Below are positions 7,137-14,383 of a stretch of DNA of 46,461 nucleotides, one piece after another (within the stretch, counting starts at the first letter, position 1; each line of letters opens with the position of its first letter). The translations under genes and the position numbers were made by a program. Under the pieces are notes generated by a model that searched no databases, was not told the DNA's origin, and saw only the letters and a program-made list of their open reading frames with translations. The stretch is from contig JADFSR010000033.1 in the NCBI GenBank assembly GCA_022560615.1, forward strand, positions 1 through 46,461, written 5' to 3'. This stretch comes from Gemmatimonadota bacterium (GTDB taxonomy: Bacteria > Gemmatimonadota > Gemmatimonadetes > Longimicrobiales > Gaopeijiaceae).

Positions 7137-9392
7137 ATGACGCCTGAAGCCGTGAAGGAGCGTGAGGTCGTCCTGCCCATCACGGGCATGACCTGCGCGA
7201 ACTGTGCGGCGACCGTAGAGCGCGCGCTGCGAAAGACCGAAGGGGTGACGGAGGTATCGGTCAACTACGCGACCGAGCGGGCAACTGTGCACGTTGACTC
7301 GTCGACGCTCGGTGTGGACGAGCTGGCAGCAGCCGTCGAGCGCGTCGGCTACGGCGTGGTTCAGGCTGACGAGTCGGATCTCGACGACGCGGAGGCCGAG
7401 GCCCGGTACGCCGAACTGCGCAAGCAGACACGCATGTTTTGGACCGGAGTTGTGTTCGCCGGCCCCCTCTTCGCACTCAGCATGGCCCGGGACTTCTCGT
7501 GGCTCGGCGCCTGGGCGCACGCGACGTGGGTGAACTGGCTCATGTTCGCCCTCGCGGCGCCGGTGCAGTTCTACGTGGGCTGGGACTATTACGTCGGAAG
7601 CTGGAAATCGCTACGGAACGGATCGGCGAACATGGACGTGCTGGTCGCTCTGGGCTCGTCCGTCGCGTTCGCCTACTCCGTTGTCGTGGCATTCGCGCTC
7701 AGCGTCGGAAGCGTCGGCTTCGGCGAGCACGTCTACTTCGAGACCGCCGCGCTCATCATCACGCTCATCAAGCTCGGCAAGCTGCTCGAGGTCCGCGCAA
7801 AGGGAGAGACGGGCGAGGCGATACGAGAGCTCATGAGTCTTCGGCCCGACACGGCACGCGTCGTCCGGGGCGACGAAGAGCGGGACATCCCGCTGGACCA
7901 GGTCGAAGTGGGTGACGTCGTGGTGGTCCGGCCCGGAGAGCGGGTACCGGTGGACGGTGTGCTGCTCGACGGGCGGTCGTCCGTGGATGAGAGCATGCTC
8001 ACCGGAGAGAGCATGCCCGTCGACAAGGAGCCGGGGGACGAGGTGATCGGGGCGACCATGAACCGTTCGGGGTCGTTTCGCTTCCGCGCGACGAAGGTCG
8101 GGGCCGAGACCGCGCTCGCTCAGGTGATCCGCCTGGTGCGCGAGGCTCAGGGTAGCAAGGCGCCAATCCAGAGACTCGCGGACCAGGTTGCGGGCATCTT
8201 CGTGCCCGTGGTGATCGCGCTAGCGTTAGCCACCTTCTTGCTATGGTGGTTGGTCGTAGGAGCCGGCTTTACGGATGCGTTGATCCGCCTCGTGGCGGTG
8301 CTCGTGATCGCGTGCCCCTGTGCGCTCGGGCTCGCCACGCCGACAGCGGTGATGGTCGGGACGGGGCGCGGCGCCCGACTGGGCATCCTCTTTAGGAGCT
8401 CGGAAGCGCTCGAGCGAGCCAAGCAGGTGAGTGTTGTCGTGCTCGACAAGACCGGCACGATCACTCGTGGCGAGCCGGTCGTGCGCGACGTTGCTGCGGT
8501 CGATGGCGACGAGGCGAGACTATTGCGCCTTGCCGCCTCCGCGGAGATGAGAAGCGAACACCCTCTGGCGGAGGCCGTCCTCGTCGAGGCGAGGCGTCGG
8601 GATCTGACGCTCTCGGAGCCTGAGCGGTTCGAGGCGCTGGCGGGCCGAGGTGTGACGGCATCGGTCGATGGCGCTGGTATCCTGGTCGGGACCCGATCCT
8701 TCCTGGAGGAGCACGGCGTCGAGACGTCCTCCTTGGCCGACGCGGCGGCGCGCATCGAGTCCGACGCGCAAACGCCGCTCTGGATCGCCACGGACGAGAG
8801 AGTGCTCGGCCTGATCGCGGTCGCCGACTCCGTCAAAGAGGGCTCCAGGGACGCAGTGCGCGAGCTCCAGGATGCCGGCCTCCGTGTGGTGATGTTGACC
8901 GGAGACCGGAAGGCGACGGCTCGAGCCATCGCCGAAGAGGTCGGAATCACCGACGTGCGCGCCGAGCTCCTTCCAGAGCACAAAGTCGGGGCGATCCGGG
9001 AGCTGCAGGAGAACGCCGTGGTGGCGATGGTCGGTGACGGCATCAATGACGCGCCGGCGCTCGCGCAGGCCGACGTGGGAATCGCGATCGGGACGGGCAC
9101 CGACGTCGCGATGGAAACCGCGGACGTCATCCTCATGCGAGGGGACCTGAGGTCCGTACCGGTGGCCTTCGCGCTGAGCCGGGCGACGATGCGTACGATC
9201 GAACAGAATCTGTTTTGGGCGTTCTTCTACAACGTGATCCTGATCCCGGTGGCGGCCGGGGCACTCTACTCGCTGGCGTTCCTGCCGATGATGCTACGAG
9301 CCCTCCACCCGATTCTGGCGGCGTTCGCGATGGCGTTCAGTTCGGTCAGCGTCGTCATGAACAGTCTGCGGCTGCGCCGGGCACGACTTTAG
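7137..9392 (+). CDS. copA: Copper-exporting P1B-type ATPase
   Basis: A 751-residue heavy-metal P-type ATPase. In order: one N-terminal HMA domain ([15 protein letters not shown], about residues 17-32), eight predicted membrane helices, the actuator motif TGES, the ion-binding CPC motif at Cys393-Pro-Cys395, the phosphorylated Asp437 in [10 protein letters not shown], the P1B-specific SEHPLAEAV, and the hinge [10 protein letters not shown]. The C-terminal membrane segments contain the N and MxxSS-type signature ([16 protein letters not shown]) expected of Cu(I) pumps. It exports Cu(I) from the cytosol. Gene order with CsoR and CopZ supports copper rather than zinc or cadmium. Confidence 0.96.
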
Positions 9393-13591: not shown

Positions 13592-14383
13592 TCAGTCGCC
13601 GCTGGGTTTCTCCGCCGTCATCATCACTGCTTTGACCCCATACGCTTCCGCCGAGTTCTGCGTCGCCGTCTTGCGGAACCGAAAGTTCGGTACGACCGCC
13701 GAACGAACGCGCTGGAACCCAGACTCTTCGAGCAGCCTGAACATCTCTCCTTCCAGGAGAGCGCCTCCGATTCACGCCGCCCACAGCTTGGGGTCGTTCA
13801 CGATCGAGGGGGACAGCTGCTTCGCGCTCACGATGTCCGTGATCGAGATCCGCCCGCCCGGCTTGAGGACCCGAAACATCTCTTCGACCACTTTCCGCTT
13901 CTGGAATGACAGATTGATGACGCCGTTGGAGATGACCACGTCGACGGACTCGTCCGTCAGCGGGATGCTCTCCATGCGGCCTTCATGGCACTCCATCTCC
14001 AAGCCGGTCGCCGCGGCGTGGGCCTGTGCCTTCAAGCACATCGAGGGATTGAGATCGACGCCAATGACTTTGCCGGTGGGGCCCGTGCTGCGCGCGGCGA
14101 TGATCGCGTCGAGTCCCGCGCCGCTACCCAAGTCGAGCACGGTCTCCCCGGGCTGCACGTTGCTACGCAAATGGGGATTGCCGACGCCAGCAAAGGACGC
14201 GACGGCTCCCTCGGGCGCTTCGTCGAGCGAGTGCGCGTCGTACGCGAACATCTCCGCGGCCTGGCGCCCGTGGAAGAAGTGGAATTCGCCCTCTGGATTG
14301 TCCGCGACGTCCTGGTACATGCGGATGATTTCGTCCTTGAGAACGCTCTCCAGTTCCGCTTGCGCCTCGACGCTGCCTGTCAT
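13592..14383 (-). CDS. Selenocysteine-containing SAM methyltransferase, UbiE/ArsM-like
   Basis: A class I SAM-dependent methyltransferase of 263 residues if the in-frame TGA at 13772-13774 is read as selenocysteine (residue 204). Residues 85-95 hold the SAM loop VLDLGSGAGLD; GVDLNPS, the VDVVISNGVINLS block and FRVLKPGGRISITDIV follow, as in UbiE and arsenite methyltransferases. Just before the TGA is NDPKLWAA and just after it IGGALLEGEMFRLLEESGF. Relatives have LWxxC(I/V)xGAL there, so the TGA replaces a conserved Cys that binds As(III) in ArsM. The frame then stays open to a TGA at 13592. The Cys of prokaryotic ArsM in SNCVIN is Gly here (SNGVIN), so the substrate may not be arsenite. It lies 62 bases downstream of the M14 gene. 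Confidence 0.85.
13745..13761 (-). promoter_or_regulatory. Predicted bacterial SECIS hairpin of the methyltransferase
   Basis: On the minus strand, immediately after the TGA, CTCTCCT pairs perfectly with AGGAGAG around a GGA loop (7 bp). Seventeen nucleotides separate the TGA from the first loop G. Bacterial SECIS elements lie just inside the coding region, with a G at the start of a small apical loop about 16-37 nucleotides from the UGA, so both position and shape fit. This is a pattern match, not a folding calculation. Confidence 0.7.

Follow-up and report, generated by a model that had tools for sequence, protein, structure and literature searches.

A predicted single-selenocysteine methyltransferase of the ArsM fold in Gemmatimonadota

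We analysed a 46,461-nucleotide contig of a Gemmatimonadota bacterium (JADFSR010000033.1, assembly GCA_022560615.1; hereafter the window), which carries on its minus strand a gene for an S-adenosylmethionine (SAM) methyltransferase resembling the arsenite methyltransferase ArsM. The reading frame opens with an ATG at 14383, meets an in-frame TGA at codon 204, runs on for 59 further codons and terminates in a second TGA (13594-13592), as described in a first-pass annotation made from the sequence alone. That annotation also expected standard gene calling to return a truncated 203-residue protein, and a plain open reading frame (ORF) caller indeed gave only 203 amino acids (13772-14383). With the internal TGA translated as selenocysteine (Sec), the product is a 263-residue ArsM-like methyltransferase of one domain with one Sec, in the motif U204-I-G-G (UxxG). 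The features of the gene are listed below; residue assignments are from alignment.

13592-14383, minus strand: full gene of the ArsM-like SAM methyltransferase, a predicted selenoprotein of 263 residues with Sec204
13772-13774, minus strand: in-frame TGA, predicted Sec204 (TGA in all clade relatives covering the codon; alignment to 5eg5 and 5evj)
13745-13761, minus strand: predicted bacterial Sec insertion sequence (SECIS) hairpin, 7 bp with a GGA loop (covariation; fit to the published bacterial SECIS model)
13595-13771, minus strand: conserved 59-codon C-terminal region downstream of the Sec codon (frame open across homologues)
13922-13924, minus strand: Gly154, aligned with Cys174 of CmArsM, which binds As(III) there
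14183-14185, minus strand: Val67, aligned with CmArsM Cys72
14264-14284, minus strand: FHFFHGR (residues 34-40), at the site of the Cys-rich CCxxxCC segment of bacterial ArsM
14036-14038, minus strand: Cys116, in the core clade only, lost together with Cys132
13988-13990, minus strand: Cys132, partner of Cys116 by co-conservation

The internal TGA is shared by close relatives. A scan of species genomes recovered 44 loci of the clade, mostly from Gemmatimonadota metagenome-assembled genomes (62-84% identity), and each of the 44 has TGA in column 204. A separate search covered 395 genomes from the phylum, of which 40 contributed 41 copies spanning this column (53-84% identical to the query), every one with TGA; 2 more copies end before it. 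All relatives have either Sec or Cys at column 204, with Cys in L097, L099, L100, L105, L117, L118 and the ArsM structures, in keeping with the earlier proposal that the TGA takes the place of the family Cys. Across homologues, the 59 codons that follow are free of in-frame stops, compared with 127 and 15 stops in the two alternative frames; the clade frames terminate in TGA, TAG or TAA at nearly one position. Synonymous changes make up 0.53 of the codon differences after the TGA and 0.59 before it. The strongest synonymous lock lies within the hairpin described below, at codons 208-213, which give the top ten-codon windows of the entire gene, with frozen synonymous sites at codons 208 (GCT, 42/43), 209 (CTC, 43/43), 212 (GGA, 43/43) and 213 (GAG, 42/43).

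Two other explanations of the TGA were considered and rejected. Genome-wide reassignment to Trp or Gly is at odds with the TGA terminator of the gene itself, the Cys column in relatives and the presence of Sec machinery. An assembly error, in which the codon would be TGC or TGT, conflicts with independent assemblies that all agree on TGA. One copy, L114 (G250:C269), apparently lacks about residues 23-111 through an in-frame deletion and retains the Sec codon and SECIS; it comes from a 10.3 Mb, probably mixed, bin.

A perfect 7-bp hairpin with a GGA loop, CUCUCCU-GGA-AGGAGAG, starts 10 nucleotides after the TGA, where the first-pass annotation had placed it, and its loop lies 17 nucleotides from the UGA. 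Taken alone, without comparison, the hairpin is weak evidence and not significant: its minimum free energy is -11 kcal/mol with a fold z-score of -1.57, and a perfect 7-bp hairpin at like spacing occurs at about 1% of anchors drawn at random from the window. A scan of the region against Rfam gave chance matches only and no bacterial SECIS family. The published bacterial SECIS model, as quoted in PMC13188914, specifies a loop of 3-9 nucleotides, a stem of 4-16 bp, a distance of 16-37 nucleotides from the UGA, a G in the first two loop positions and a minimum free energy of at most -7.5 kcal/mol. The hairpin agrees with the model in loop, stem length, distance and energy, which bears out the earlier remark that the spacing is typical. 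Among 58 distinct Sec sequences, pairing is kept in 97.5% of cells, and 2 of the 7 pairs covary (C-G to G-C and U-A to C-G), one of them coupling a Leu/Pro substitution with a silent GAA/GAG exchange. Two-sided changes number 30 cells, compared with 8.0 +/- 6.1 in shuffles and 0 or 1 in slid controls. Thus, the evidence from the hairpin becomes strong because the TGA is conserved in the clade, codons 208-213 are locked and the stem covaries.

The genome of the window encodes the machinery to read such a signal, with matches to tRNA-Sec (66 bits), SelB (333 bits), SelA (541 bits) and SelD (386 bits). Its SelD gene (L112, G000:C1:137397-138323) contains a single in-frame TGA and probably encodes a selenoprotein as well; selenoprotein SelD is a known form of the enzyme. 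In a set of 249 genomes of the phylum, 26 have a TGA clade member; tRNA-Sec was detected in 24 of these, and the other two (G153, G170) have SelB. Given a base rate of 182/249 for tRNA-Sec, the association has a p value of 0.012 for tRNA-Sec alone; scoring the two SelB genomes as positive too gives 0.0002, a figure that mixes two criteria and is indicative only. SelB is absent from the genomes of the Cys relatives L097, L099 and L100 (G202, G205 and G137, all three tested), and G202 and G205 gave only borderline tRNA-Sec scores of 48 bits. Neither SelB nor tRNA-Sec was detected in G155 (91% complete), the genome of a distant Sec relative, which may reflect incompleteness or mis-binning. Because the TGA column, the synonymous lock and the covariation all back it, the reading of UGA204 as Sec through SelB, tRNA-Sec and the downstream hairpin is near-certain on comparative grounds, and the earlier proposal of a selenoenzyme with Sec at the catalytic Cys of ArsM is strongly supported.

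The more distant relatives form two clades, a second one with Sec (LWxGUIAGAL) and one with Cys (LWAECIVGA), the Cys forms being about 42% identical to the query. The second Sec clade (L096, L098, L101-L104, L115, L116, L119 and L120; 40-46% identical) carries a matching SECIS, CUCUGC-UGGA-GCAGAG; one of its contigs, G250:C153, holds two copies about 3.3 kb apart. Phylogenetic analysis grouped the Sec clades with the Cys clade, separate from ArsM proper (support 100/99), and paired the Cys clade with the second Sec clade as sister groups (99/92), a topology that requires at least two Sec/Cys changes, although long branches make the exact placement uncertain.

Sequence, the confident AlphaFold2 model (predicted local distance difference test score 93.9) and fold matches all assign the protein to the ArsM SAM methyltransferase fold. 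It matches Pfam Methyltransf_31 (E 7e-30), and the top fold matches of the model are CmArsM, CrArsM and human AS3MT. The fold is that of the known ArsM/AS3MT enzymes (PRK11873, NF008823; CmArsM 4fr0 and 6cx6), and in a phmmer alignment Sec204 falls on Cys224 of CmArsM, equivalent to Cys206 of human AS3MT. The remaining cysteines of those enzymes are lost: Cys174 of CmArsM is replaced by Gly154 (preceded by Asn153), as already noted in the first-pass annotation for the Cys of SNCVIN, Cys72 is replaced by Val67, and FHFxHGR stands where the Cys-rich N-terminal segment (for example, CCxxSCC in L105, L117 and L118) is found. Thus, of the required As(III)-binding trio Cys174/Cys224/Cys72, one column is left and it is held by Sec.

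Cys156 and Cys206 of AS3MT correspond to positions 174 and 224; the C156S and C206S mutants have no activity on arsenite or methylarsenite, and dimethylarsenite is bound by a single cysteine (PMC3877260). In mouse AS3MT, Cys157/Cys207 is the active-site pair according to Fomenko et al., as cited in PMC4211708. With Sec at the position of residue 206 and Gly at that of 156, and both cysteines needed in AS3MT, the classical reaction is not expected; as judged from the sequence, a two- or three-thiolate As(III) site could not form and classical arsenite chemistry is unlikely. The doubt about such chemistry voiced earlier on the basis of Gly154 is strengthened by the inactivity of AS3MT C156S and by the additional loss of Cys72 and the N-terminal cluster.

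On the basis of these observations, we propose, with a probability of roughly 0.6, that this ArsM/AS3MT-fold selenoprotein uses its single Sec204 selenolate to hold or activate a soft, singly coordinated substrate. Once UGA204 is read as Sec by SelB and tRNA-Sec at the hairpin, one selenolate of low pKa would lie next to the SAM methyl group and bind or activate a soft one-ligand substrate, which would then be methylated and released. The substrate would be a metalloid or other soft species, in line with the first-pass suggestion; candidates are an already methylated arsenical or a chalcogen or thiol species. Selenium chemistry in general offers binding that is both tight and reversible, as well as protection from over-oxidation, and Sec in place of Cys would confer these advantages here. 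Some points weigh against this proposal: most loci have neither an ars operon nor a conserved neighbour gene, and Sec204 could instead be redox-active.

More tentatively, and with the odds somewhat against it, the group may be a branch of the ArsM superfamily that abandoned the multi-thiolate site and rebuilt it around one selenolate for a substrate new to the superfamily, such as a chalcogen, a persulfide-derived thiol or an organometal species. Sec would then be the sole obligatory soft ligand, with Cys confined to lineages lacking SelB.

It is unlikely, if conceivable, that the protein is a true arsenite methyltransferase acting on As(III) or methyl-As(III), with Sec and external thiols (glutathione or similar) standing in for the lost cysteines. 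ArsM and AS3MT are its nearest solved structures in sequence and fold, and PRK11873 (ArsM) is its best NCBIfam match at 212.2 bits; however, this score falls below the cut-off of 263, Val67 and Gly154 occupy the positions of Cys72 and Cys174, the latter corresponding to the residue whose replacement inactivates AS3MT, and the genome also encodes an ArsM-like paralogue, L018, that keeps the LGCGNP and SNC cysteines. Two longer paralogues in the same genome have Cys at the Sec column.

Less probable again is a redox or regulatory role, in which Sec204 would form a selenenylsulfide switch and not bind substrate. Cys116 and Cys132, conserved in the core clade, could be read in its favour, but both are missing from Sec-bearing L090, L092 and the 40-46% identical clade; therefore, no conserved resolving Cys accompanies Sec across the group, and a disulfide-type partnership of these residues with Sec was rejected as a general feature. 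The two cysteines are conserved jointly in the core clade and lost jointly in L057/L089, L062, L090 and L092, which suggests a structural pair.

We consider very improbable a methyl relay in which SAM methylates Sec204, which then hands the methyl group on: a selenolate is a strong nucleophile, and the alignment and fold match would put it beside the SAM site, but we found no evidence for such a relay here and know of no precedent in ArsM. Finally, the idea that the TGA is an ordinary stop yielding a 203-residue protein, a sequencing error or the mark of a pseudogene is scarcely credible, since it agrees with standard ORF calling but not with a TGA common to independent assemblies, coding constraint downstream, a conserved covarying SECIS and a genome with Sec machinery.

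Neighbourhood clustering of the 44 loci revealed no conserved partner gene, and the commonest neighbour cluster (12 of 44 loci) is by sequence a generic Ser/Thr kinase family. In four Gemmatimonadota loci, the methyltransferase gene is directly followed by a gene for a rhodanese/metallo-beta-lactamase fusion, and in L051 and L067 the gene identified next encodes a major-facilitator transporter. The fusion genes lie at the following positions.

L050, 6228-7379: rhodanese/metallo-beta-lactamase fusion gene
L051, 6737-7891: rhodanese/metallo-beta-lactamase fusion gene
L067, 205-1359: rhodanese/metallo-beta-lactamase fusion gene
L068, 154-1338: rhodanese/metallo-beta-lactamase fusion gene

This arrangement, the sole clue from gene context, mildly points to sulfur or persulfide chemistry. 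In the window, a cupin gene lies downstream and peptidase genes upstream, neither being a conserved neighbour, and a heavy-metal P1-type ATPase (HMA and E1-E2 ATPase domains; 7137-9389) is encoded on the opposite strand about 4 kb away.

ArsM-like selenoproteins with a UxxG motif are already known. PMC13188914 includes a Sec-containing arsenite methyltransferase with UxxG, WP_011987699.1, among the known selenoproteins and cites Fomenko et al. 2007 for it; compared by description only, it resembles our protein in having Sec in the UxxG of an ArsM-like protein. The same source gives three predicted ArsM-type multi-Sec families of Haft and Tolstoy 2025: NF047649, a methyltransferase/UXPK-star double selenoprotein; NF041536, ArsM/DUF2284; and NF041537, ArsM/AhpD. 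All three share the UxxG in an ArsM-like domain, and this domain matches over most of its length. As described there, they have 2-3 Sec residues, and two of them also carry a second, named domain, whereas the protein described here has one Sec and one domain. Its scores fall far below their cut-offs (185 versus 460, 189 versus 575 and 207 versus 510 bits), the comparison being one of profile scores and descriptions. We found no description of the present family in Gemmatimonadota among the open-access papers searched. What is new is the single-domain, single-Sec form across this phylum.

ORF callers without UGA decoding truncate the gene, and no matched NCBIfam ArsM-type model reaches its cut-off; the family has therefore probably been overlooked across Gemmatimonadota. 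Selenoproteins of known function are mostly redox enzymes. A conserved Sec in a methyltransferase that has lost the partner cysteines of ArsM would offer a clean natural test of the role of Sec in methyl transfer to soft elements.
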